A stretch of 17,161 bases of DNA, taken from positions 1-17,161 of the forward strand of contig CALWEE010000012.1 of NCBI GenBank assembly GCA_944376975.1, in the 5' to 3' direction. Within the stretch, counting starts at the first letter, position 1. Every line of letters starts with the position of its first letter. This stretch comes from an uncultured Lachnospiraceae bacterium (GTDB lineage Bacteria > Bacillota > Clostridia > Lachnospirales > Lachnospiraceae). Below, piece by piece: positions 1-10,013 of this stretch. The position numbers were made by a program, and so were the translations under genes. Under the pieces are notes generated by a model. It saw nothing but the letters and a program-made list of their open reading frames with translations. It was not told the origin of the DNA and ran no database searches.

Positions 1-316
1 CGTTGATCGCCACGCCCACGGGTAGCTCCTCATCTGATTTCATCTCGTAAACGGCAAGCCGGATGATGGTCAGGTCCACTTTGGTCATACGCCCCGTGCT
101 CCAGCCTTCCACCGCGCCGTCGATCATGACGTCGATGTCGGAAAGTTTTTCCCGGATCTTGTCCACCCGTTCCGTGATATATGCCCGTTCTTCTTCGCCG
201 GCTGTCTGGAGATGCTCCATATAAAGCGTCTCCTGTTCGCCCATGTCGCCGTCCGGATGAAATTCCACCCGGAACAGCAGGCGGAATATATGTTCCCGTA
301 GTTCTCTTCTGCCCAT
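1..316 (-). CDS. nusB: Transcription antitermination factor NusB (3' end cut off)
   Basis: The visible 105 codons begin MGRRELREHIFRLLFRVEF and run through TKVDLTIIRLAVYEM to PVGVAIN, the conserved framework of NusB. NusB is the small all-helical RNA-binding protein that pairs with ribosomal protein S10 (NusE) on boxA to promote antitermination of rRNA operons. No stop codon is reached, so about 25-30 C-terminal residues lie outside the window. I chose the ATG at 316 because GGAGGA sits just upstream; an in-frame ATG at 331 lies upstream of that ribosome binding site and is unlikely. The gene follows asp23 with a 91-nt gap that contains a hairpin. The spoIIIAH-asp23-nusB order is usual downstream of spoIIIA in Clostridia. 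Confidence 0.93.
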   Translation of the reverse strand, partial: MGRRELREHIFRLLFRVEFHPDGDMGEQETLYMEHLQTAGEEERAYITERVDKIREKLSDIDVMIDGAVEGWSTGRMTKVDLTIIRLAVYEMKSDEELPVGVAIN

Positions 317-345
317 AGTTTCCTCCAACATTTTATCTCACTTTA

Positions 346-380
346 AAGGTGACGCAAGTCGGCAAAACCCGCGTCACCTT
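346..380 (-). repeat. 10-bp perfect inverted repeat between asp23 and nusB (possible attenuator)
   Basis: AAGGTGACGC (346-355) and GCGTCACCTT (371-380) are perfect reverse complements around a 15-nt loop. On the minus strand the hairpin is followed by TTTAAAG rather than a long T run, so it is at best a weak terminator. It could partly attenuate reading from asp23 into nusB, or stabilise an mRNA end. Function is inferred from position only. Confidence 0.55.
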
Positions 381-407
381 AAACTTTCCATAAACACAGA
401 CGCCCGA

Positions 408-794
408 TCAGTCTTCTTCCAGATCGACGCCCGCTATCCTTATATTGACATCGGATACTTCCAGTCCCGTCATGTTCTCGATCGCGCTCTTGACCCGTTC
501 CTGGACCGCGGACGCCACTTCCGGAATGGCATACCCGTATTCCAGGTTGATGGCCAGATCGACGGAAACACTTTCCCCGTCCACGCTGATCTTAACGCCC
601 TTGGAAAGGTTTTTCATGCCAAGCTTGGCAACCAGTTCGTTGGTGATATTCCCGTACATGGAAGCAACCCCTTTGACTTCTGTCGCCGCCAGTCCGGCAA
701 TGATCGCCACCACTTCATCAGCGATCTGCACTTCGCCGATCGTATGCTCATCGTGTATCGCGTAACTCATTGTATCTTCATGTTCTTTAGCCAT
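408..794 (-). CDS. Asp23/Gls24 family envelope-stress-response protein (YqhY-like)
   Basis: This 128-residue protein has the Asp23/Gls24 fold signature: an IADEVVAIIAGLAATEVKGV stretch (about residues 24-43), a basic and glycine-rich middle (GNITNELVAKLGMKNLSKGVK), and a C-terminal VQERVKSAIENMTGLEVSDV helix followed by VNIRIAGV. Members are soluble proteins linked to envelope homeostasis; the paralogue YqhY lies just upstream of nusB in Bacillus and is linked to control of acetyl-CoA carboxylase. The ATG at 794 is preceded by GGAGGT at suitable spacing, which supports it over the ATG nine codons in. A vegetative-type promoter lies directly upstream, so the gene need not depend on sporulation control of spoIIIAH. 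The exact function here is not visible from sequence. Confidence 0.92.
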   Translation of the reverse strand: MAKEHEDTMSYAIHDEHTIGEVQIADEVVAIIAGLAATEVKGVASMYGNITNELVAKLGMKNLSKGVKISVDGESVSVDLAINLEYGYAIPEVASAVQERVKSAIENMTGLEVSDVNIRIAGVDLEED

Positions 795-833
795 CGGTCT
801 CTACCTCCATCTGTTAAAACCTTCTTACAGGGT

Positions 834-862
834 ATTATAACAAAATTATATGCTTTTGAAAA
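834..862 (-). promoter_or_regulatory. Vegetative (sigma-A type) promoter for asp23-nusB
   Basis: On the minus strand TTTTCA (857-862) is separated by 17 nt from TATAAT (834-839). The -10 box is preceded by TG plus one base, giving an extended -10. It overlaps the stop region of spoIIIAH and lies about 40 nt upstream of the asp23 start. This would give asp23 and nusB housekeeping expression independent of the sporulation gene before them. Confidence 0.72.
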
Positions 863-870
863 GAAAATTA

Positions 871-1542
871 TCAATTTAATGTGGTGATCACAATGCTCTC
901 CGCTCCCATATCCGTTTTTCTCCGCACGATATCTTCGATCTGCGCTTTTTCTTCCTCCGTCAGGCTTTCCCGGCAGACGACCACGTCGCAGGACGTTTCC
1001 GTCAGGCTGACCACCGCGTTCTGGAAGCCTTTCGCGGCCAGCAATGTTTCCGCCGCCGCCTCCATCTCCGACCGGTCGGTCATGGCGATCAGGTCTTCCA
1101 TGGCGGTCTGCTTTAATTCTTCCGTGACATTTTCATTGTCGATCACGTCCAGCAGCGCTTCTTTATTCTTGGACCGCATCTGTTCCCGGTTCAGTTTGGC
1201 GGACGCGCTGAAATTCTGCCCCGCCGCGGTGCTGGTCAATACGGCCTCCCCCACATTTTCAATGGGCTGCGCCTCCGCGTCCGGATCTTGCGTCCCCTCT
1301 TCCAAAGACGGATCTTCGCTTTCCTCCCCCGCATCGGCGACAGCCTGTTCATCATCCGCCGCCACGTAAATATCCGCGTTCGCGTCGGTCAGATCGTACA
1401 CCTCATCTTCCGGAGCCACATAGGTCGCGGCCGCGCTGTCCGCCTCCATGCCTCCTGTCCTGAAATTCAGATACCCGGCAACGATGATCATGACCGCCAG
1501 GGCCGCGATGACGATCTGATTTTTCCTGACACCCTTTTTCAA
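871..1542 (-). CDS. spoIIIAH: Stage III sporulation protein AH (SpoIIIAH)
   Basis: The 223-residue protein has a basic N-terminus (MKKGVRKNQ), one transmembrane helix (about residues 9-26), an acidic linker (about 30-95), and a C-terminal YscJ/FliF-like ring-building domain. Recognisable segments are SAKLNREQMRSKNKEALLD, the TDRSEMEAAAETLLAAKGF helix, and the ending RRKTDMGAESIVITTLN. In sporulating cells SpoIIIAH is anchored in the mother-cell membrane and binds SpoIIQ from the forespore to form a channel across the intermembrane space. The start codon is TTG at 1542, fixed by AAGGAGGG six bases upstream. Unusually, the gene is not next to spoIIIAG: about 3.7 kb, including a divergent operon, separates them. 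It has its own sigma-E-like promoter. Confidence 0.93.
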   Translation of the reverse strand: MKKGVRKNQIVIAALAVMIIVAGYLNFRTGGMEADSAAATYVAPEDEVYDLTDANADIYVAADDEQAVADAGEESEDPSLEEGTQDPDAEAQPIENVGEAVLTSTAAGQNFSASAKLNREQMRSKNKEALLDVIDNENVTEELKQTAMEDLIAMTDRSEMEAAAETLLAAKGFQNAVVSLTETSCDVVVCRESLTEEEKAQIEDIVRRKTDMGAESIVITTLN

Positions 1543-1584
1543 CCTGAACCCTCCTTAAACCATCTGTCACTGTTTGCTACTTCC

Positions 1585-1613
1585 ATTCTATGAAAAGGGC
1601 CCGCCGTATATGC
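1585..1613 (-). promoter_or_regulatory. Sigma-E-like sporulation promoter for spoIIIAH
   Basis: Reading the minus strand, GCATATA (1607-1613) is followed after exactly 14 nt by CATAGAAT (1585-1592). The sigma-E consensus known from Bacillus is roughly GMATATT, 14 nt, CATACAnT, so the match is 6 of 7 and 7 of 8. The predicted transcript start lies some 30-40 nt before the TTG start codon. This explains how a gene detached from the spoIIIA operon can still be expressed in the mother cell. It is read by eye and not tested. Confidence 0.72.
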
Positions 1614-1623
1614 CGGAGTAAAA

Positions 1624-1717
1624 TTGAACTTTTTGTCACAACTTCCCCCTGTTCCGCATTTTTTATATTGAACTTCTCTTTATGCTATGTTAAAATAGTT
1701 TCCATGAAATTGAACTT
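1624..1717 (+). repeat. Three TTGAACTT direct repeats at 42-44 bp spacing (candidate XRE operators)
   Basis: TTGAACTT occurs at 1624-1631, 1668-1675 and 1710-1717, all on the same strand, with starts 44 and 42 bp apart, or about four helical turns. Two copies have mirrored flanks: AAAA/TTTT around the core TTGAAC in the first, and TGAAA/TTTCA in the third. The second copy overlaps the predicted -35 box of the XRE-alaA operon, and the third overlaps its transcript start and abuts the ribosome binding site. The first copy lies about 10 bp upstream of the spoIIIAH -35 box. Such placement fits autoregulation by the XRE domain encoded just downstream; this is an inference. Confidence 0.65.
1668..1696 (+). 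promoter_or_regulatory. Promoter of the XRE-alaA / FAD-dehydrogenase operon
   Basis: TTGAAC (1668-1673) is followed after 17 nt by TAAAAT (1691-1696), giving 4 of 6 and 5 of 6 matches to the sigma-A consensus. The transcript would start near 1703, about 30 nt before the ATG at 1733. The -35 box coincides with the second TTGAACTT repeat. Confidence 0.65.
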
Positions 1718-1732
1718 TCAGGAGAGATGCGC

Positions 1733-3241
1733 ATGAACGAAACTTTCGCGGACCGTCTAAGATCGGCAATGGCCCGACAGGACAAAAAACAGGTGGACCT
1801 GATCCGGGCCGCCGCCGAGCAGGGCCTGAAACTGGGAAAAAGCCATATGAGCCAGTATGTCAGCGGGAAGACCATCCCCCGCGCCGGCATCCTCCATTTT
1901 CTCGCCCAGACCCTGGACGTGGATGAAGACTGGCTGAAAGACGGTAAAAACACAGGAACATCCCGGTCCTGCCGCCGGGAAGACAACGGCACGGACAACG
2001 ATCATATTTCAGGAGGAATCACGATGCGGTATTTTAAAAAATCTTCAAAACTGAACAATGTTTTATACGATGTGAGAGGTCCTGTAGTGGACGAAGCGAC
2101 AAAAATGGAGGAGGACGGAACGCAGATCCTGAAATTGAACATCGGCAATCCGGCTCCTTTCGGTTTCCGCACGCCGGACGAAGTCATCTATGACATGCGC
2201 CGTCAGCTCACCGAATGTGAAGGCTACTCTTCCGCCAACGGGCTTTTTTCCGCCCGGAAAGCGATCATGCAGTACGCCCAGTTAAAAAAGATCCCCAACG
2301 TGACCATGGATGATATCTATACCGGAAACGGCGTCAGCGAACTGATCAACCTGTGCATGTCCGCCCTGTTGGACGACGGGGACGAGATCCTCATCCCTTC
2401 GCCGGACTATCCGCTGTGGACGGCCTGCGCCACCCTGGCCGGCGGCAAACCGGTCCACTATATATGCGACGAACAGGCGGACTGGTATCCGGACATGGAA
2501 GATATGAAAAAGAAGATCACCGACCGGACAAAGGCCATCGTCATCATCAATCCCAACAACCCAACCGGCGCCCTCTACCCGAAGGAAGTCCTTCAGCAGA
2601 TCGTTGATATCGCCAGACAGCATCAGCTGATCATCTTTTCCGACGAGATCTACGACCGTCTGGTCATGGACGGCGAGGAACACATCTCCATCGCGTCTCT
2701 CGCCCCGGATCTGTTCTGCGTCACCTTCAGCGGGCTGTCCAAATCTCATATGATCGCCGGGTTCCGGATCGGCTGGATGATCTTAAGCGGCAATAAACGC
2801 ATGGCCACAGACTATATCGAAGGGCTGAAAATGCTTTCCAACATGCGGCTGTGCTCCAATGTGCCGGCCCAGTCCATTGTCCAGACTGCCCTTGGCGGCA
2901 ACCAGAGCGTGAAAAGCTACATCGTTCCCGGCGGCCGTATATACGAACAAAGGGAATTCATCTATAACGCGCTGACCGATATCCCCGGCATCAGCTGCGT
3001 CAAACCGAAAGCGGCTTTTTACATCTTCCCCAAGATCGACGTGAAAAAGTTCAATATCACCAATGATGAACAGTTCGCGCTGGATCTGCTCCGGGAGAAA
3101 AAGATCCTGCTGATCCACGGCGGCGGCTTCAACTGGCATCAGCCGGACCATTTCCGCATTGTCTATCTGCCCCGGATCGAAGTGCTGAAAGAGGCCATGG
3201 ACAAGATCAAAGATTTCTTCAGCTACTATAAACAGGCCTGA
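1733..3241 (+). CDS. XRE helix-turn-helix fused to AlaA-type alanine aminotransferase
   Basis: One uninterrupted 502-codon frame encodes two domains. Residues about 3-68 form an XRE HTH domain (TFADRLRSAM, the recognition-helix region KSHMSQYVSGKTIPR, then ILHFLAQTLDVDEDWL). A charged linker runs to about 97. Residues 98-502 form a fold-type I PLP aminotransferase that closely matches E. coli AlaA: KSSKLNNVLYDVRGPV, LNIGNPAPFGF, NPNNPTGA, SDEIYDRL and GLSKSHMIAGFR. The lysine in GLSK is the Schiff-base residue; counted from the internal Met it is residue 240, as in AlaA. The C-terminal DHFRIVYLPR supplies the substrate-carboxylate arginine. The AlaA reaction is pyruvate plus glutamate to alanine plus 2-oxoglutarate. 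I chose ATG 1733 over ATG 1727 because AGGAGAG ends at 1726, too close to the latter. The FAD dehydrogenase follows after 24 nt. An internal start could also yield free AlaA. Confidence 0.9.
   Translation: MNETFADRLRSAMARQDKKQVDLIRAAAEQGLKLGKSHMSQYVSGKTIPRAGILHFLAQTLDVDEDWLKDGKNTGTSRSCRREDNGTDNDHISGGITMRYFKKSSKLNNVLYDVRGPVVDEATKMEEDGTQILKLNIGNPAPFGFRTPDEVIYDMRRQLTECEGYSSANGLFSARKAIMQYAQLKKIPNVTMDDIYTGNGVSELINLCMSALLDDGDEILIPSPDYPLWTACATLAGGKPVHYICDEQADWYPDMEDMKKKITDRTKAIVIINPNNPTGALYPKEVLQQIVDIARQHQLIIFSDEIYDRLVMDGEEHISIASLAPDLFCVTFSGLSKSHMIAGFRIGWMILSGNKRMATDYIEGLKMLSNMRLCSNVPAQSIVQTALGGNQSVKSYIVPGGRIYEQREFIYNALTDIPGISCVKPKAAFYIFPKIDVKKFNITNDEQFALDLLREKKILLIHGGGFNWHQPDHFRIVYLPRIEVLKEAMDKIKDFFSYYKQA
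2011..2026 (+). promoter_or_regulatory. Internal ribosome binding site and ATG at the HTH/AlaA junction
   Basis: AGGAGG (2011-2016) stands 7 nt before an in-frame ATG (2024-2026) inside the fusion gene. Translation from here would give a 405-residue protein starting MRYFKKSSKLNNVLYDVRGP, the same length as E. coli AlaA and starting at the equivalent place. The site is stronger than the one used for the full-length protein. It may be a relic of a once separate aminotransferase gene or a working second start. Which of these holds cannot be told from sequence. Confidence 0.7.
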
Positions 3242-3265
3242 TCATCAAAGGAGGCGATCTCACCT

Positions 3266-4645
3266 ATGGATTACGACGTGATCATCATCGGCGCGGGCCC
3301 CGGCGGCATCTTCGCGGCCTATGAACTGATAAAAGAACGGCCCTCCTGCAAAGTGGCCGTATTTGAAGCGGGCCACGCCCTGGAAAAAAGAAAGTGTCCC
3401 ATTGACGGCGTACACGTTAAAAGCTGCGTCAACTGCAGCCGCTGCTCCATCATGTGCGGCTTTGGCGGCGCCGGCGCTTTTTCCGATGGGAAATACAATA
3501 TCACCAACGATTTCGGCGGTACCCTTTATGAGCATATCGGGAAAAAGCAGGCTCTGGACCTGATGAAGTACGTGGACAGCATCAATATGGCTTATGGCGG
3601 CGAGGGGACCCGGCTCTACTCCACCGCGGGCACCCAGTTCAAAAAGCTTTGCCTCCAGAACAAACTGAATCTTCTGGACGCTTCTGTCCGCCACCTGGGG
3701 ACCAATATCAATTATGTGGTCCTTGGAAACCTTTACGCCCATCTGAAAGACAAAGTCGACTTCTATTTTGACAGTCCGGTCAAAACCATCCAGAAAACGG
3801 AAAAGGGTTACCGGATCATCTGGGAAACGGGCAGCTGTGAATGCGCGAAATGTATCGTTTCTGTCGGCCGGAGCGGAAGCAAATGGATGGAACAGGTCTG
3901 CCGGGAAATGGATATCCCTACCAAATCCAACCGGGTGGACATCGGCGTGCGGGTGGAACTTCCCGCCGTCATCTTTTCCCATCTCACCGACGAATTATAC
4001 GAAAGCAAGATCGTCTACCGCACGGAAAAATTTGAAGACAAGGTACGTACATTCTGTATGAACCCCAACGGGATCGTGGTCAACGAAAACACCAACGGCA
4101 TCATCACGGTCAACGGCCACAGCTATGAGGGCAGCGATAAAAAAACAGAAAACACCAACTTCGCCCTTCTTGTGGCCAAACATTTTTCCGAGCCGTTCAA
4201 AGACAGCAACGGCTACGGGGAAAGCATCGCCAGACTGTCCAATATGCTGGGCGGCGGCGTGATCGTCCAGCGGTTCGGCGATCTGATCCGCGGGCGCAGG
4301 AGCACGGTCAAACGGGTGGAGGAAGGGCTGGTGCGTCCCACCCTTCAGGCCACGCCCGGCGATCTGAGCCTCGTCCTTCCCAAACGGATACTGGACGGCA
4401 TCATCGAGATGATCTACGCGCTTGACAAAGTGGCGCCCGGGACCGCCAACGACGATACGCTCCTGTACGGCGTGGAAGTCAAATTCTACAACATGGAAGT
4501 GGCCATTGACGAACATCTGGAAAGCCGCTATAAGGGGCTGTATATCATCGGAGACGGAAGCGGCGTGACCCATTCCCTCTCCCACGCGTCCGCCAGCGGC
4601 GTGTACGTGGCCCGGCATATCCTGTCGGAAAACAGATCTGACTGA
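3266..4645 (+). CDS. FAD-dependent dehydrogenase (COG2509-like) with Cys cluster
   Basis: This 459-residue flavoprotein begins MDYDVIIIGAGPGGIFAAYE, a Rossmann dinucleotide fold with GxGxxG at residues 9-14, followed by the acidic VFEAG strand end. The C-terminal segment YIIGDGSGVTHSLSHASASG (about 426-445) is the second FAD contact. After the first fold come C44, then C54, C57, C60 and C64 in CVNCSRCSIMCGFGGAGAF, just before SDGKYNIT. That spacing (CX2CX2CX3C) equals a ferredoxin [4Fe-4S] motif, though the usual following proline is glycine. The family is predicted NAD(P)/FAD oxidoreductases without a settled substrate. AAAGGAGGCGATC precedes the ATG, and the gene lies 24 nt behind the XRE-AlaA fusion, so the two are probably cotranscribed. 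Its substrate and any link to alanine metabolism are unknown. Confidence 0.85.
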   Translation: MDYDVIIIGAGPGGIFAAYELIKERPSCKVAVFEAGHALEKRKCPIDGVHVKSCVNCSRCSIMCGFGGAGAFSDGKYNITNDFGGTLYEHIGKKQALDLMKYVDSINMAYGGEGTRLYSTAGTQFKKLCLQNKLNLLDASVRHLGTNINYVVLGNLYAHLKDKVDFYFDSPVKTIQKTEKGYRIIWETGSCECAKCIVSVGRSGSKWMEQVCREMDIPTKSNRVDIGVRVELPAVIFSHLTDELYESKIVYRTEKFEDKVRTFCMNPNGIVVNENTNGIITVNGHSYEGSDKKTENTNFALLVAKHFSEPFKDSNGYGESIARLSNMLGGGVIVQRFGDLIRGRRSTVKRVEEGLVRPTLQATPGDLSLVLPKRILDGIIEMIYALDKVAPGTANDDTLLYGVEVKFYNMEVAIDEHLESRYKGLYIIGDGSGVTHSLSHASASGVYVARHILSENRSD

Positions 4646-4654
4646 AAAGACAAA

Positions 4655-4682
4655 CGAGCCAGGACGTAAATGTCCTGGCTCG
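4655..4682. terminator. Bidirectional hairpin terminator between convergent genes
   Basis: CGAGCCAGGAC (4655-4665) and GTCCTGGCTCG (4672-4682) form a perfect 11-bp stem with a 6-nt loop. On the minus strand the stem is followed by TTTGTCTTTTC, a fair T-rich tail. On the plus strand the tail is poor. It lies 9 nt after the FAD-dehydrogenase stop and 25 nt after the stop of the converging membrane-protein gene. Confidence 0.82.
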
Positions 4683-4707
4683 ATCACGTTCCTCCCATGC
4701 CGCCCGG

Positions 4708-5169
4708 TCACTTTCTCTTATAGATAAAGTAGCCCGCCGCGTACCACAAAGTACGCAGGATATAAACTACCGCTCCGGATATGAGCACCGTCCATACCGG
4801 ATAAAAGTAATTTCCTGTCCCGTTCCTGTCAAGCAGCGAAAAAAGCCCCGCCATCAAAACAGAGCTGACCGACACCGCGACAACATACAGGATGATCTTT
4901 GTATAAGGCAGTTTCTCCACATGATCCTTCCCAAAAAAGATGAGCATGGTCACGCTGCCGAACAGATACAGATTCTGGCACAACAACTGGATGACTCCCA
5001 CCACCGTATGGCTCCAGAAGCGTATACCGAACATCTGATCTGTTATGCCGCCTCTCCAGGGCATCCATATATCGATGATAAAATAAACAAGCTGATAGAT
5101 CAGCAGGCCTGCCAGCATGATCGCCGTCAGCGTCCAGTTGATCTTATTTAATTTCTTTTCCGTAAGCAT
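4708..5169 (-). CDS. Small membrane protein of unknown function, four helices
   Basis: I do not recognise this 153-residue protein. It has a short basic start (MLTEKKLNKINW), then four hydrophobic segments at about residues 13-33, 51-78, 90-112 and 124-146, and a basic end (YKRK). The loops are short; FFGKDHVEKLPYTK lies between helices 2 and 3. The ATG at 5169 has GGAGGAGGG a few bases upstream. It has its own extended -10 promoter at the end of spoIIIAG, and a hairpin terminator follows it, so it is probably a single-gene unit. Reading through from the spoIIIA operon is also possible, because no terminator is visible between. It occupies the place where spoIIIAH is normally found, but it shows no ring-building domain and is not an SpoIIIAH variant. 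A sporulation role is not shown by the sequence. Confidence 0.8.
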   Translation of the reverse strand: MLTEKKLNKINWTLTAIMLAGLLIYQLVYFIIDIWMPWRGGITDQMFGIRFWSHTVVGVIQLLCQNLYLFGSVTMLIFFGKDHVEKLPYTKIILYVVAVSVSSVLMAGLFSLLDRNGTGNYFYPVWTVLISGAVVYILRTLWYAAGYFIYKRK

Positions 5170-5194
5170 CGTAACCCTCCTCCCGTATGTAATT

Positions 5195-5224
5195 ATTATA
5201 CCATACCGGAAGCGGGGCTGTCAT
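5195..5224 (-). promoter_or_regulatory. Promoter of the four-helix membrane protein gene
   Basis: On the minus strand ATGACA (5219-5224) is followed after 18 nt by TATAAT (5195-5200), and the -10 is extended by TGG. The predicted transcript starts around 5188, leaving a leader of about 20 nt with the ribosome binding site. The -35 box lies just past the spoIIIAG stop codon. It is of vegetative type rather than sigma-E type. Confidence 0.68.
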
Positions 5225-5226
5225 CT

Positions 5227-5835
5227 TCATTGTCCATTATCCTGTTCCATCTTCACCACTTTGATCTTGTGCGCCGGCACATCATACAACGCCTGGACCG
5301 CTTCGGATATTTCATCCGCGACCCGTTCCTCGCCGCCGCCTTCGCAGCACACGACGACGCCTTCGATCTCCGGTTCGGTCTTTCGGATCACATACGGGAC
5401 ATCCTGGCCGTTTTCGTCTTGGGCGTATACGGTGCTTTCCGAATGACTGCCTTCCGAACTTCTTCTGCTGCCGCCCTGGGAATCGGTCTCCTCCACGGAA
5501 CTGTTCTGGGACGTGACGTCTTTTTCGATCACATACTCGCCTGTGGCCGCCGCGCGGATCATGACCCGGACTTCTCCCGCGCCTTCAATGGCCGACAGAA
5601 GCTTCGCGAGCCGTTCTTCCTGATTTTTCACATACGCTTCCAGATCTTTTGTTTCCCCGGCCGCTTGCCCTTCTGGCACCGTCTTTGTCCCGTCGGCAGA
5701 GCCATCGGGTTCATCTGAAGATCTTCCCGGTACAGGCCAGACGATAAGCAGGCATAAAACGCCGGCCAAAATAACGATCAGAGCCTGTTCCTTCCTGTTT
5801 TTCCCTGTAAGCATACGACATAACTTCTCTCCCAC
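5227..5835 (-). CDS. spoIIIAG: Stage III sporulation protein AG (SpoIIIAG)
   Basis: The 202-residue protein has a basic N-terminus, one transmembrane helix (about residues 17-34, ALIVILAGVLCLLIVWPV), a polar linker, then the SpoIIIAG ring-building domain: AYVKNQEERLAKLLSAIEGA, EVRVMIRAAATGEYVIEKDV, a Ser/Gly-rich insertion (about 108-135), and PEIEGVVVCCEGGGEERVAD with a final helix. In Bacillus SpoIIIAG forms a 30-fold ring in the mother-cell membrane as part of the SpoIIIA-SpoIIQ complex. The start is GTG at 5835, preceded by AGGAGGTGACAGC. It lies 12 nt after spoIIIAF. SpoIIIAH, which should follow directly, does not; a separate small gene comes next. Confidence 0.94.
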   Translation of the reverse strand: MGEKLCRMLTGKNRKEQALIVILAGVLCLLIVWPVPGRSSDEPDGSADGTKTVPEGQAAGETKDLEAYVKNQEERLAKLLSAIEGAGEVRVMIRAAATGEYVIEKDVTSQNSSVEETDSQGGSRRSSEGSHSESTVYAQDENGQDVPYVIRKTEPEIEGVVVCCEGGGEERVADEISEAVQALYDVPAHKIKVVKMEQDNGQ

Positions 5836-5847
5836 GCTGTCACCTCC

Positions 5848-6459
5848 TCATCGGACCGTCAACGTGACACGCGCCGGATCCACGCCATACTGAGAAGATA
5901 TATCGGATTTCCACTGATCGATCTCCCCCTGGGGCACCCGGTCGGCCGCCTGGCTTTCCTCCGTCTCCGGCGTGACGCGCACCGGCTCCACCGGACGGAT
6001 CCCGGATGTCTCGCCGTCCGCGTCCCGCGCGCCATCGGGCAGGAGCAGTTCCGCCGACACCGCCTGTATCTGTCCATAACCTTCCCCGGACGCGTCTGTT
6101 TCCATGGTCAACGTACAGGAAACCACGGTCAAAGACTGGGATTCAAAATAGGCCACGATCTGCCGTCTTACCGTTTCTTCATAAGCGTCCGAAAAAAGAC
6201 TGTCTTCATCAAAAAGCTCACGGGACGCTTCCGCCTCCATGGACGAAAGTTTCAGATTTTCCTGAACGAAATTCCGGAATACCTTTTCATCCACACCCAA
6301 AAGCGAAAGGATGGGCGTACTGATCATGAGGATCAGTATAAGTCCCATAGCCAGACGGACATATTTTCTGTATTTATCCCGCGGGATCATCTGTTCCACC
6401 AATGTCATCACCAGCAAAAACGTGACGATCCCCATGATCCAGGACTTGAGCGCCTCCAT
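5848..6459 (-). CDS. spoIIIAF: Stage III sporulation protein AF (SpoIIIAF)
   Basis: The 203-residue protein starts MEALKSWIMGIVTFLLVMTL, with two transmembrane helices (about residues 8-25 and 37-54), the first followed by the family motif EQMIPRDKYRKYVRLAMGL. A soluble C-terminal domain follows, ending SSQYGVDPARVTLTVR. Its fold in Bacillus resembles ring-building domains of secretion systems. I chose ATG 6459 because it follows a purine-rich GGGGGGAAGAAG and aligns with family starts. A TTG nine codons earlier lies inside the end of spoIIIAE and lacks a ribosome binding site. A proline- and glutamate-rich stretch (about 145-180) separates the core from the C-terminal strand. Confidence 0.93.
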   Translation of the reverse strand: MEALKSWIMGIVTFLLVMTLVEQMIPRDKYRKYVRLAMGLILILMISTPILSLLGVDEKVFRNFVQENLKLSSMEAEASRELFDEDSLFSDAYEETVRRQIVAYFESQSLTVVSCTLTMETDASGEGYGQIQAVSAELLLPDGARDADGETSGIRPVEPVRVTPETEESQAADRVPQGEIDQWKSDISSQYGVDPARVTLTVR

Positions 6460-6475
6460 CTTCTTCCCCCCTGTC

Positions 6476-7603
6476 TCAGCTTCCAAGAAGCAGCCCCGAA
6501 GACGCGGTGATCATAGCCAGGGAAACGACGAAAAGGACAAAAACCGTCCCCAACATCCGCATGAGCAGGCAGATCCCCGCGGACACGCCGTGAAGGCAGC
6601 AGACCATCCGCTTATCTGCCGCCGGCTGCACCAACGCCTGCGCAAGCTGGTACATAAGCGCCATGCACCCGAGTTTGACCGCCGGAATGAGGAACATGAG
6701 CGCCAGGATAACGATCCCCGCCGCCCCGACGCTGTTTTTAATGACCGCCGCCCCTCCGGCCACGGTCTTTACCGCCGATTCCATGGCGTCACCCACGCCC
6801 GGGACCGCGAAAAGGATCCGGGCCGCCATGCCGTTTTTTACCGTGTCGAAAGCCGGAAGGACCATATTCTGGACCAGATTAAGTCCGAGGACAAGTCCAA
6901 GAATGGTCTTCAGCGTCCACCGGATCACCGTATGGAAAAAATCCGCTAGTTTGGACAGATGTTCTTCCCGGGACAACTGATCGATCAGGCTGACCAGCAC
7001 ATAAACGTGGATCAGTTTCAATACGCCCCGGGTGATGATCCATTCCAGAGCCGTCAGCAGAACGAGCATGAACTGCTGATAGAGAGCCGCCGTGGTCAGA
7101 TGCCCCGCCAGCGTCAGGGAAAGGCAAAATGTGGGGACCAGCGCGGACATGAATTTCAGCATATTTCCCATCAGATTTTCCGCCAGCGAAACAGCCGTAT
7201 GAAAGGAAGCTAAAAGCAGGGCGAACATGACCATATACGTCAGGTAAAATCCCGTTTCCGCTATGGAACCTCTGGAAAACGCCATGGAAAAACTGGTAAA
7301 GACCGAACTGATCAGGACGATGCCGATCATCTGTCCCATGGCTTTCCGGTTGAAGGTCAGTTCATAAAACAGCCGGTCCGCCACATAATCTTTCACCCCG
7401 GAAAAAATATCCCGGACCGATCCGGAGGAAAACGACATCACCAGATCCGCGAACGTTATCCTGTCGTCTTCCGGCAGCATGTCCGCCACGGCTTCTTCCA
7501 CCTGGGAATAATCCAGGGCATCCGCCCCGTCCCCTGTTTCCGCGCGCGCCAAAATACCTGGGCTAAACAGGAGGAAGCACAGGATAAAGAGAAGCGGCCG
7601 CAT
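6476..7603 (-). CDS. spoIIIAE: Stage III sporulation protein AE (SpoIIIAE)
   Basis: This 375-residue polytopic membrane protein has a likely signal peptide (MRPLLFILCFLLFSPGILARA, cut near residue 21). A short extracytoplasmic region containing DYSQVEEAVADMLPEDDRITF follows, then about seven to eight hydrophobic segments. Conserved SpoIIIAE stretches include GMAARILFAVPGVGDAMESA and the loop VKTVAGGAAVIKNSVGAAGI. It is the large membrane component of the SpoIIIA complex, possibly its core export subunit by analogy with secretion systems. The ATG at 7603 lies 4 nt after the spoIIIAD stop. Its ribosome binding site, GGAG, lies within the last codons of spoIIIAD, which suggests coupled translation. 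Confidence 0.94.
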   Translation of the reverse strand: MRPLLFILCFLLFSPGILARAETGDGADALDYSQVEEAVADMLPEDDRITFADLVMSFSSGSVRDIFSGVKDYVADRLFYELTFNRKAMGQMIGIVLISSVFTSFSMAFSRGSIAETGFYLTYMVMFALLLASFHTAVSLAENLMGNMLKFMSALVPTFCLSLTLAGHLTTAALYQQFMLVLLTALEWIITRGVLKLIHVYVLVSLIDQLSREEHLSKLADFFHTVIRWTLKTILGLVLGLNLVQNMVLPAFDTVKNGMAARILFAVPGVGDAMESAVKTVAGGAAVIKNSVGAAGIVILALMFLIPAVKLGCMALMYQLAQALVQPAADKRMVCCLHGVSAGICLLMRMLGTVFVLFVVSLAMITASSGLLLGS

Positions 7604-7607
7604 CCGT

Positions 7608-7988
7608 TCACTCCATAAACTGCCGGACCGTATCCAAAAGGGCTGTCAGGACCGGCAGACTCATGACCAGTATGGACAGTTTCCCGAACATCTCGATCTG
7701 GGAGGCGATGCCGCGGTATCCGGCGTCCCGGCAAAGATCCGACGAAAACTCACTGATGTAGGCGATGCCCACCACTTTGACCACCACCGACACGTACGAA
7801 AGATTGACCGACAGGTACTGGCTTATCTTTTCGATCTCCGATAAGATGACTTGCAGACGGGTCACGGAAAAGCCGAATATGAGCACGCCCGCGGCAACCC
7901 CGATGAAAACCGCGTACTCCGGCTGGACGCTTTTTAATTTTATGGCGATGAGCACCGCAGCGATGCCCAGCAAAGCGATTTTTGCCAT
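7608..7988 (-). CDS. spoIIIAD: Stage III sporulation protein AD (SpoIIIAD)
   Basis: The 126-residue membrane protein has hydrophobic helices at about residues 2-16, 25-45 and 102-118. The conserved family core is KVVGIAYISEFSSDLCRDAG (about 71-90), followed by GIASQIEMFGKLSILVMSLP. With SpoIIIAC it forms small inner-membrane subunits of the SpoIIIA complex. The ATG at 7988 has GGGAGA upstream. The gene lies 17 nt after spoIIIAC and 4 nt before spoIIIAE. Confidence 0.95.
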   Translation of the reverse strand: MAKIALLGIAAVLIAIKLKSVQPEYAVFIGVAAGVLIFGFSVTRLQVILSEIEKISQYLSVNLSYVSVVVKVVGIAYISEFSSDLCRDAGYRGIASQIEMFGKLSILVMSLPVLTALLDTVRQFME

Positions 7989-8005
7989 AGACTCTCCCTT
8001 TCTTC

Positions 8006-8200
8006 CTAAAGGGCAAACATCTGCTCGATGGTCTGGAATAATTCATAAATATACGGCACGATCCACAAAAGGACGAGGATCAGGCCGGCAAGGCTGATGA
8101 GAAAGGCCTGTTCCTCCCGCCCCGAATGTTTCAGCACCTGATTCAGGATGGAGACGAGTATGCCTACCGCGGCGATCCGGAATATGATCTGTATGGACAC
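8006..8200 (-). CDS. spoIIIAC: Stage III sporulation protein AC (SpoIIIAC)
   Basis: The 64-residue protein consists of two transmembrane helices (about residues 5-22 and 33-53) around the conserved charged turn LNQVLKHSGREEQAFLISLA. The length and the paired-helix design are typical of SpoIIIAC, a small membrane subunit of the mother-cell channel complex. The start is GTG at 8200, six bases after AGGAGGTG. It lies between spoIIIAB and spoIIIAD in the standard order. Confidence 0.95.
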   Translation of the reverse strand: MSIQIIFRIAAVGILVSILNQVLKHSGREEQAFLISLAGLILVLLWIVPYIYELFQTIEQMFAL

Positions 8201-8224
8201 CTGGCACCTCCTCTTTCCATCCCT

Positions 8225-8734
8225 TTACAACAACACGATGACTAGAAAAACGCCGGCCGAAAATCCCAGGGTCTGGTACAGCCGGACGCGCTCCGGCGCC
8301 GTCTGTTTCAGGTAGCGGACCCTTTCTTCCAGTTCCCGGATACATCCGTCCAGAGCCCGGACACGCACCTGATCGTCCATTACGCCGATAAAGGCTCCCA
8401 GTTCACGGATGATGGCCGCGTCTTCGCCGCGCAGCGTCCGTTCCGCCGACGCCCGCCACACGCTTTCACCGCTTTCGGCATTGCCGTCTTTAAGTCCGGC
8501 CGCCAGTTCCCGGTAAAAATCGGCGACCTCCCTCCGGCAGACCCGGTAGCTGATCTCCTCCGCCGCCTCCGGTATCGTCAGTCGGTAACTGACGATCTGG
8601 TTTTTAAAAAGCATCAGGCTTTGGCTAAAAACCTGGAGAAGAACGATCCTTTCTTTCAGGACGAACGCCCGCGAAAATCCCCAGCAGCCGCAGCCCGCGA
8701 TGACCAGGCACATGCCCGCGATCTTCAGCCACAC
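8225..8734 (-). CDS. spoIIIAB: Stage III sporulation protein AB (SpoIIIAB)
   Basis: The 169-residue protein has an N-terminal transmembrane helix (about residues 3-20), a charged alpha-helical cytoplasmic part, and a C-terminal hydrophobic helix (about 152-169, LGFSAGVFLVIVLL). Family motifs include LLQVFSQSLMLFKNQIVSYR, RTLRGEDAAIIRELGAFIG and the RVRLYQTLGF run before the last helix. SpoIIIAB resembles GspF-type platform proteins of type II secretion and is thought to partner the ATPase SpoIIIAA. The start is GTG at 8734, with GGGAGG five bases upstream. It overlaps the end of spoIIIAA by 10 bp, so the two are probably translationally coupled. Confidence 0.94.
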   Translation of the reverse strand: MWLKIAGMCLVIAGCGCWGFSRAFVLKERIVLLQVFSQSLMLFKNQIVSYRLTIPEAAEEISYRVCRREVADFYRELAAGLKDGNAESGESVWRASAERTLRGEDAAIIRELGAFIGVMDDQVRVRALDGCIRELEERVRYLKQTAPERVRLYQTLGFSAGVFLVIVLL

Positions 8735-9684
8735 ATATACCTCCCGGAGCTTCGCTCCATACCGTTTTCCCCGATCACGTCCGGGATCCGGTCAAACGTT
8801 TTTTTATCGGACAACACAACATATTTTTCAAACGGCGGCTTCCCGCGCCCGGCGGCAAAAAAACGCCGGTCGGCGTCTTCCCTGCCCTGTCCGTGCATGG
8901 TTGCGATCACCCGACAGCCGCAGGCCGCCGCTTCCAGGACCGCCTCCATGTCCCGGTCGCCGCCCAGCTCATCCACCGCGATCACCTGAGGCGACATGGT
9001 CCGGATCAGCCGGGTCACGCCCATCGCTTTCGGGCAGTTATCCATCACGTCGGTCCTTATGCCCAGGTCGTTTTGCGCGACGCCCTGGTAACAGGCTCCG
9101 ATCTCGGACCGTTCATCGGCCACGCCCACCGTCATGCCTTCCACATAGCCCAACCCGTCCAAAAATCCTCCGTTGGACAGCAGGCGGACAATGTCTCTTA
9201 ACAAGGTAGTCTTCCCGCAGCCGGGCGGCGCGACGATCAATGTATGGCACAGGCTGTTTTCGCAAAACAGCCGGGGAAGGACTTTCGCGCCGCAGCCGGG
9301 GACTTGATGGGCGATACGGATATTCAGCGAAGAAATATGACGTATGCCGTCCACCTGGCCGTCTTTTACGACCATCTGGCCGCACAGGCCGACCCGATGT
9401 CCGCCTTTGATCGTCAGGAATCCCTGACGCATTTCATCCGCGTACGCGTAGAGGGAATACTGGCACAGCCGGTCCAGGGTTTCTTTCACATCCGGCGCGT
9501 TCACCCGAAGGCCCGCCTCCAAAGTTTTGGTCATCCTCCCCTGCTCATCCACGCCATATTCCCGGTTTTTAAACCGGATGAGCAAAGGCCTGCCGGCCCT
9601 CAGACGTATCTCCTGAAGATCGGGCAGCGCTTTCAGGACCGGCGCCAGTGCCCGGCCAAGTCTTTGGGAAAACATGCGCTCCAT
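8725..9684 (-). CDS. spoIIIAA: Stage III sporulation protein AA, secretion-type ATPase (SpoIIIAA)
   Basis: The 319-residue protein carries a Walker A motif (APPGCGKTTLLRDIVR, about residues 159-174), a Walker B motif (VIAVDELGGDRDMEAV), the arginine-rich GVADERSEIGACYQG segment between them, and ATMHGQGREDADRR after. These mark the type II/IV secretion-like ATPase SpoIIIAA, which works in the mother cell with the SpoIIIA membrane subunits and is needed for sigma-G activity in the forespore. I chose ATG 9684, seven bases after AGGTGG, which gives a family-typical length. The reading frame stays open further upstream only by running through the pspC terminator and pspC itself. It is the first gene of a seven-gene operon. 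Confidence 0.94.
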   Translation of the reverse strand: MERMFSQRLGRALAPVLKALPDLQEIRLRAGRPLLIRFKNREYGVDEQGRMTKTLEAGLRVNAPDVKETLDRLCQYSLYAYADEMRQGFLTIKGGHRVGLCGQMVVKDGQVDGIRHISSLNIRIAHQVPGCGAKVLPRLFCENSLCHTLIVAPPGCGKTTLLRDIVRLLSNGGFLDGLGYVEGMTVGVADERSEIGACYQGVAQNDLGIRTDVMDNCPKAMGVTRLIRTMSPQVIAVDELGGDRDMEAVLEAAACGCRVIATMHGQGREDADRRFFAAGRGKPPFEKYVVLSDKKTFDRIPDVIGENGMERSSGRYMCG

Positions 9685-9703
9685 ACCATCACCACCTGTG
9701 ATT

Positions 9704-9730
9704 AATATATGTGGACAAACCAGATTTAGA
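9704..9730 (-). promoter_or_regulatory. Possible sigma-E promoter of the spoIIIA operon
   Basis: On the minus strand CATATATT (9704-9711) matches the sigma-E -10 consensus CATACAnT at 7 of 8 positions and lies about 20 nt before the spoIIIAA start. The best upstream element, TCTAAAT (9724-9730), is a poor -35 match and the spacer is only 12 nt. Position and -10 support the call, but the -35 is weak. Confidence 0.35.
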
Positions 9731-9748
9731 ACCGGGACGAAAACGCGA

Positions 9749-9792
9749 AAAACGGAAGCCTTTCCATATGCCCGATGGAATGCTTCCGTTTT
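9749..9792 (-). terminator. Terminator of the padR-pspC operon
   Basis: AAAACGGAAGC (9749-9759) pairs with GCTTCCGTTTT (9782-9792). Inside, TTCCAT (9762-9767) pairs with ATGGAA (9775-9780) around a 7-nt loop, leaving a small bulge. On the minus strand the stem runs into TTTTTCGCGTTTTC, a good termination tail. It lies 26 nt after the pspC stop and isolates spoIIIAA from the upstream operon. The plus-strand tail is TTTTCATT, so it may work both ways. Confidence 0.85.
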
Positions 9793-9818
9793 CATTCGGT
9801 TAAAATACGTTTTCCTGA

Positions 9819-10013
9819 CTATCGCCAGGGTTCCGGCGGCATGATCAGAGCCGCGATGATATAAACCGGTATGCCTGACCCGCCGGCGAACACAAGGATG
9901 ACCGCCAGCAGGCGGATGAGCGTCGGGTCCACGTTCAGGTATTCGCCGATGCCCCCGCAGACGCCCCATATCATCTTGTTCTCACGGGAACGATATAACT
10001 TTTTTGATGACAC
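9819..10013 (-). CDS. PspC domain protein
   Basis: The 64-residue protein is a single PspC domain: a basic start (KKLYRSRENKMIWGVCGG), then IGEYLNVDPTLIRLLAVIL leading into the transmembrane helix (about residues 34-58), and a short tail (MPPEPWR). PspC proteins sense or signal membrane and envelope stress; stand-alone domains of this size are common in Firmicutes. The start is GTG at 10013 with a purine-rich GAGGGGGAG upstream. It lies 15 nt after the DUF4097 gene and is the last gene of the padR operon, before a strong terminator. This pairing suggests a membrane-linked role for the whole operon. Confidence 0.93.
   Translation of the reverse strand: MSSKKLYRSRENKMIWGVCGGIGEYLNVDPTLIRLLAVILVFAGGSGIPVYIIAALIMPPEPWR

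Follow-up and report, generated by a model that had tools for sequence, protein, structure and literature searches.

The gene analyzed here occupies positions 1733-3241 (+) of a 17,161-nucleotide stretch of DNA, hereafter the window, from an uncultured Lachnospiraceae bacterium (contig CALWEE010000012.1 of assembly GCA_944376975.1). It joins a helix-turn-helix (HTH) domain of the XRE type to a complete AlaA aminotransferase in a single open frame. Because its own promoter carries rows of a DNA word used by a phage repressor, it is very probable that this enzyme regulates how much of itself is made. We consider it likely that the protein is an autorepressing, or "trigger", alanine aminotransferase, whose CI-type head would sit on the repeats of its own promoter, whose AlaA dimer would pair two heads, and whose mRNA would also give rise to an AlaA without the HTH. 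The elements involved are as follows, in window coordinates.

1624-1631 (+): operator-like repeat 1, TTGAACTT
1668-1675 (+): operator-like repeat 2, TTGAACTT, whose TTGAAC (1668-1673) is the predicted -35 box, with a 17-nt spacer to TAAAAT
1691-1696 (+): predicted -10 box, TAAAAT
1710-1717 (+): operator-like repeat 3, TTGAACTT, 42 bp past repeat 2 and just 3' of the transcription start, which is predicted near 1703
1720-1724 (+): AGGAG, the ribosome-binding site from which the fusion is translated, 8 nt 5' of ATG 1733
1733-3241 (+): fusion gene (HTH, linker, AlaA), 502 codons plus stop
1745-1942 (+): HTH domain (about residues 5-70, with the recognition helix at 36-44), which belongs to the type of phage TP901-1 CI
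1943-2023 (+): linker, residues 71-97, variable in length and sequence
2011-2016 (+): internal Shine-Dalgarno sequence AGGAGG, 7 nt 5' of ATG 2024, within a conserved internal ribosome site spanning 2011-2026
2024-3241 (+): AlaA domain from M98, also the predicted second start of a 405-residue AlaA without the HTH
2741-2743 (+): codon of K337, presumably the lysine that binds pyridoxal 5'-phosphate (PLP)

The initial annotation had proposed one frame with an XRE HTH and a complete AlaA, and this is borne out; it had placed the HTH at residues 3-68, and the domain is confirmed with an extent that we now put at about 5-70. ATG 1733 is preferred over ATG 1727 as the start because AGGAG sits 8 nt upstream of it and the starts of the relatives fall mostly within one or two residues. 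The best solved relative of the enzyme part is E. coli AlaA (4cvq), which gives a full-length match of 574 bits over residues 90-503, counted in the 504-residue frame from ATG 1727. The protein has NPNNPTG at 273-279 as well as K337, and K337, D304, Y307, R345 and R475 are invariant among 41 fused proteins; we take these to be the catalytic residues of a class I aminotransferase, with K337 as the PLP lysine. By its match and these residues, the enzyme part appears to be an AlaA glutamate-pyruvate aminotransferase, and it is probably active. AlphaFold predicts five helices for the HTH alone, with a mean predicted local distance difference test score (pLDDT) of 91.8; the whole-protein model (mean pLDDT 56.6) is confident only in the HTH and a few stretches of AlaA, and was not used further. 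The window HTH scores under the Pfam cut-offs of HTH_19 (22.6, cut-off 30.2), HTH_31 (22.3, cut-off 27) and HTH_3 (21.3, cut-off 23), and HTH_3 is assigned in one fused relative (L030) and in many database relatives.

An AlaA relative (E ≤ 1e-60) is found in 81 of the 299 genomes surveyed in the family, which represent 298 genera. By reading of the loci, 30 of these 81 carry the XRE-AlaA fusion, one carries another XRE head (L152) and 50 have standalone genes only, while G028 holds a fused and a standalone copy in one genome. In the order, matches come from 47 of 392 genomes, and the 10 matches that begin in the HTH are all from Lachnospiraceae; in the phylum, 30 of 398 genomes match and only the window's own match begins in the HTH (unrelated heads would escape detection). 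A search for related loci kept 80 of 509 confirmed stretches, all of them fused. A tree built on the AlaA domain, with 151 tips (7 sequences skipped, 14 duplicates left out and others above 93% identity thinned), places the fusion in one clade of 69 tips with a support of 0.995. Four standalone members sit inside this clade, some of whose inner nodes are weak, and are best read as losses of the HTH; the XRE-AlaA fusion thus appears to be one old clade in Lachnospiraceae.

A stop or frameshift between the domains in close relatives had been named at the outset as an argument against a real fusion; none of the 99 distinct fused loci, which were selected for matches across both domains, has a stop anywhere in the frame. 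(For this set, 10 loci were merged for identical AlaA, from 110 to 100, and L034, which is standalone, L117 and L152 were excluded.) The ratio of nonsynonymous to synonymous substitution rates (dN/dS) from 81 close pairs is 0.125 for the HTH and 0.043 for AlaA, and that of the linker, from 9 equal-length pairs, is 0.87. By this measure, the head is maintained by selection and the linker is nearly free except at its end. Since 99 loci lack a stop and dN/dS is low in both domains, the fusion is not a product of chance, and the open frame together with selection on the HTH rules out an annotation artefact. Of the 56 short HTH proteins listed, 18 were read, and each of these appears to be the fusion either cut off at the end of a contig or disrupted by a frameshift. 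Three database proteins (P0122, P0139 and P0152) have an apparent frameshift in or just past the linker; the internal start would still permit AlaA to be made from them. The gene is not universal in the window's genus, as its near relative G289 has no AlaA match at E ≤ 1e-60. In L152 (G247, 1219-2724) a different XRE-type HTH is fused to AlaA, with neither TGAACT repeats nor an internal Met. This locus, a single protein cluster (P0121), is nested among standalone genes with a support of 0.983 and is an independent fusion event, to which we give little weight.

The word TTGAACTT was identified upstream of the fused genes before its match to the half-site of phage TP901-1 was known. It occurs in 96 of the 99 fused upstream regions (151-260 nt), where 274 copies point one way and 22 the opposite way, against an expectation of about one; a locus has no copy in 3 cases, one in 15, two in 20, three in 29, four in 28 and five in 4. 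The spacing between neighbours peaks near 20, 30 and 42 bp, and the strongest periodicity among the periods tried is about 10.5 bp (vector length 0.555, from related and thus non-independent loci). TTGAAC lies 16-18 nt (17 in 83 loci) 5' of a TAnnnT -10 box in 86 of the 99 loci, compared with 26 loci when the same numbers are placed at random positions. In 69 of these 86 a second copy follows 38-46 bp downstream of the -35 copy, just past the predicted start. From these positions we infer repression rather than activation. The protein could instead bind the same repeats and activate its own promoter, like the activating MocR proteins, which would suit the further copies that many loci have upstream of the -35 copy, at distances near 20, 30, 40 and 50 bp; however, the -35 box is itself a copy, and this copy and the one past the start occupy typical repressor positions, so that we regard activation as unlikely.

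Among solved proteins, the HTH is closest in sequence to the CI repressor of lactococcal phage TP901-1 (profile E 8.5e-15); in the same ranking, the chains of this repressor are followed by BurrH (1.6e-4, without a passing stretch) and 3bs3 (0.032, a putative DNA-binding protein), ahead of the 434 repressor. The fused HTH agrees with the N-terminal domain of TP901-1 CI in both sequence and fold, and we assign the head to this type on these grounds. As published, the half-operator of TP901-1 CI is AGTTCAYR (reverse complement YRTGAACT). Its TGAACT core is contained in TTGAACTT and, for the loci with Q38 and A47 or S47, in ATGAACTT, both of which are predicted sites. All eight phage cI upstream regions examined, some of them closely related, have a GTTCA-N5-10-TGAAC palindrome, and six have a TTGAAC -35 box with a TAnnnT -10 box. 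The palindrome is present in 12 of 110 fused promoters, where 0.05 is expected (one gene, L025 and L210, entered this count twice), and in the early-branching L028, L030 and L032 it has a six-base spacing, as in phage O1205. The protein as a whole is not a phage CI, with AlaA in place of the C-terminal dimerising domain. A record named "UNVERIFIED: Bacteriophage sp." (MT839381.1, H1) contains the complete fusion gene at 128-1699 (L313) and seems to be a contig of bacterial origin submitted under a phage label; since the entire fusion gene is present, it was not counted as a phage repressor.

The repeat type covaries with two residues of the head. In 110 loci, counting copies outside the -35 box and excluding L152, the 83 loci with H38 and T47 have 231 TTGAAC and 8 ATGAAC or ATAAAC copies, whereas the 14 loci with Q38 and A47 or S47 have 2 and 28, respectively. 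The nine loci with Q38 and T47 have 19 and 4; seven of the nine retain TTGAAC, which rules out H38Q alone as the cause of the switch. TTGAAC is also retained in the remaining four loci. The -35 copy stays TTGAAC even where the other repeats switch, as expected if RNA polymerase reads that copy too.

The array is tied to the fused gene. Of the family's 51 standalone alaA genes, one has TTGAACTT upstream (12 of the 51 were positioned by the start of the open frame instead of the AlaA core, and for two the upstream sequence covered no more than 98 and 43 nt). The word occurs at none of 49 in a second standalone set, at least 6 of whose genes are common with the first; windows in that set were measured from the AlaA core, which makes the repeat counts unfair for its 9 fused loci. 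Within one genus (25 of 26 genomes matched), TTGAACT or ATGAACT is present three to five times at each of 11 fused genes, and once at a single gene among 14 standalone ones. Among the genes read as HTH losses, L118 retains one TTGAACTT and L168 one ATAAACTT, and L116 and L211 have none. In L118 a different small open frame lies between the promoter region bearing TTGAACTT and alaA.

A second alternative is that another protein, e.g. a prophage CI acting in trans, reads the repeats while the fused HTH has some other role. The repeat is a phage half-site, and G232 has a separate 133-residue open frame with a related HTH (G232:C1:1809508-1809732, E 4e-18), perhaps a prophage repressor. On the other hand, the array is missing from standalone alaA even within the same genus, the repeat type tracks the residues of the fused HTH, and in a profile search of 12 genomes, 11 match the HTH at E ≤ 0.01, 10 of them, the window's own included, only in the fusion. 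We regard such a reader as quite improbable.

The distribution of the repeats also bears on a third possibility, that the protein serves mainly as a sensor in the manner of MocR and controls a wider regulon, its enzyme activity being secondary. It does combine an aminotransferase with a DNA-binding head, and the direct repeats recognized by MocR proteins are spaced by two or three helical turns (PMC5320631). A search for pairs, which did not extend to single copies, argues against a wider regulon: the window's own genome has just two TTGAACTT pairs, both at the fusion promoter, and in 42 relatives, fused and unfused, 30 pairs lie at the fusion gene and 13 elsewhere, near the 8 obtained with a backward-pattern control. 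With the catalytic residues invariant and the enzyme part under strong constraint as well, a dedicated sensor seems slightly less probable still than a reader in trans.

A Met stands directly before AlaA in 96 of the 99 fused loci, all except L087, L098 and L108. Pairing with the anti-Shine-Dalgarno sequence reaches -5 kcal/mol or lower at 94 of these 96 internal Mets (mean -9.4), compared with 20% of 1132 other AlaA Mets. Synonymous recodings of the same peptides have a mean of -6.5 kcal/mol and about one in ten is equally strong, so that the peptide accounts for part of the signal. GGAGG, AGGAG or GAGGA is found at the right distance in 70 of the 99 loci, versus 2.7% of 1167 other Met codons, and in 7 of these 70 the word lies in another reading frame, which suggests conservation of the nucleotide word and not of the peptide. 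We predict that a second, HTH-less AlaA is made from this start. The strong internal site in most loci and the almost free linker might suggest that the HTH is a passenger in a relic of a fusion of which only the internal start is used in practice, but this is hardly tenable given the low dN/dS of the HTH, its conserved recognition helix, the lack of any stop and a long-start ribosome site that is also strong in 85 of 86 loci scored.

Returning to the autorepressing enzyme, we propose that the head would recognize the TGAACT half-operator, mostly as same-strand repeats about two, three or four helical turns apart, one being the -35 box, one lying just past the transcription start and the others upstream. 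The AlaA dimer would substitute for the dimerising tail of the phage repressor and bring two heads to two repeats; given enough protein, or a particular ligand state, RNA polymerase would be blocked at the enzyme's own gene. HTH-less AlaA subunits, translated from the linker's ribosome site, could pair with full-length ones and so lower the share of dimers able to repress. We offer such mixed dimers as speculation, and likewise any control by a ligand, including the sensing of alanine, glutamate or PLP suggested in the initial annotation. An enzyme controlling its own synthesis had already been suggested in the initial annotation, and the promoter repeats lend that idea strong, if indirect, support; the TP901-1 CI type of the HTH, the phage-like promoter layout, the repeats themselves and the internal ribosome site were not part of it.

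Several observations weigh against this proposal. The -35 copy alone proves little, because TTGAAC resembles the -35 consensus. Three of the 99 loci are without TTGAACTT and 15 have a single copy; L087 and L098 (Blautia wexlerae type) keep the fused HTH and one TTGAACTT, the other copies and the internal start having been lost. The covariation counts are not independent, because the tree shows one or two switches. The two patterns are also not quite symmetrical (TTGAAC is followed by T or C, the A-type by T). Exceptions to the covariation are the seven Q38/T47 loci that retain TTGAAC, the fused L117, from which both kinds of repeat are missing, L026, which lacks ATGAACT and ATAAACT and has one ATGAACA, and L021, with just one. 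The main repeat has T before TGAACT where the phage consensus has R, and phage CI uses palindromes, yet only 12 fused promoters have them. When fold is the sole criterion, TP901-1 CI comes out level with ImmR and P22 c2. As for the enzyme, its score for NCBIfam NF006230 (alanine aminotransferase) is 384.5, under the cut-off of 534, although still at the top of 73 families.

The evidence suggests that promoter and head were captured together, followed by a change to same-strand repeats, with convergence as the alternative. Going further, we tentatively envisage, with somewhat more doubt than belief, that a housekeeping gene captured a phage lysogeny module whole, i.e. cI promoter, operators and head. 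The aminotransferase dimer would have replaced the dimerising tail, and the palindromes would have been largely rebuilt into helically phased same-strand repeats. Alanine and PLP metabolism would then set the switch, and the HTH-less AlaA from the internal start would serve as its built-in antagonist.

In the window, an open frame for a flavin adenine dinucleotide-dependent oxidoreductase (3266-4645, +) begins 24 nt past the fusion gene and is perhaps co-transcribed with it. It was rejected as an operon partner, having no match in 77 fused loci of at least 6 kb (some short of 5 kb on each side). The minus-strand genes of 1-9969, which by resemblance we take to include nusB, an Asp23-type gene and the spoIIIA operon, are divergent to the fusion gene, which interrupts the run of that strand. 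Only L036 among the 77 loci shares this gene context; promoter and fusion gene therefore travel together.

The domain combination is already in protein databases. Among 120 database proteins listed, four display a name given by their source, which in each case mentions an aminotransferase or transaminase and nothing else, so the DNA-binding head seems to go unnoticed. The product name "bifunctional HTH-domain containing protein/aminotransferase" is in use at NCBI. No paper on the XRE-AlaA fusion was found in the open-licence literature. If the proposal is true, gut bacteria such as Blautia, Mediterraneibacter and Eisenbergiella have domesticated the head of a virus repressor and placed a central enzyme of amino-acid metabolism under its control, and the short, known operator with natural variants of both HTH and operator makes its specificity directly testable.

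The head resembles TP901-1 CI and the repressors of phi13 and O1205 in HTH sequence and fold, in the TGAACT half-site and in the TTGAAC -35 box seen at six of the eight phage cI promoters. Phage CI, however, has its own helical dimerising tail and palindromes, whereas the fusion has an aminotransferase and mostly same-strand repeats. With MocR, GabR and PdxR, to which the initial annotation compared it, the fusion shares a DNA-binding head on a class I aminotransferase fold and direct repeats on one face of the DNA, here helically phased putative operators. The comparison holds for working and fails for origin: the head is a helical HTH of the XRE/CI type rather than a GntR winged helix, which excludes the fusion from the MocR/GabR group. 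The enzyme part is, moreover, a close AlaA with its catalytic residues, and no repeat pairs were seen beyond its own gene in the genome. The resemblance thus seems to be one of working, not of descent, and as this would be a separate route to a DNA-binding aminotransferase, it allows us to ask which MocR properties reflect shared logic and which reflect ancestry. E. coli AlaA (4cvq) is alike over the whole enzyme part, including the PLP lysine and the C-terminal arginine, in a chain without a DNA-binding head. Enzyme-repressor fusions are already known: PutA, a trigger enzyme of proline oxidation, unites the enzyme and the repressor of its own gene in one chain. The fusion is predicted to follow the same plan; the head of PutA is of the ribbon-helix-helix type, and what is unusual here is a head of the phage type.
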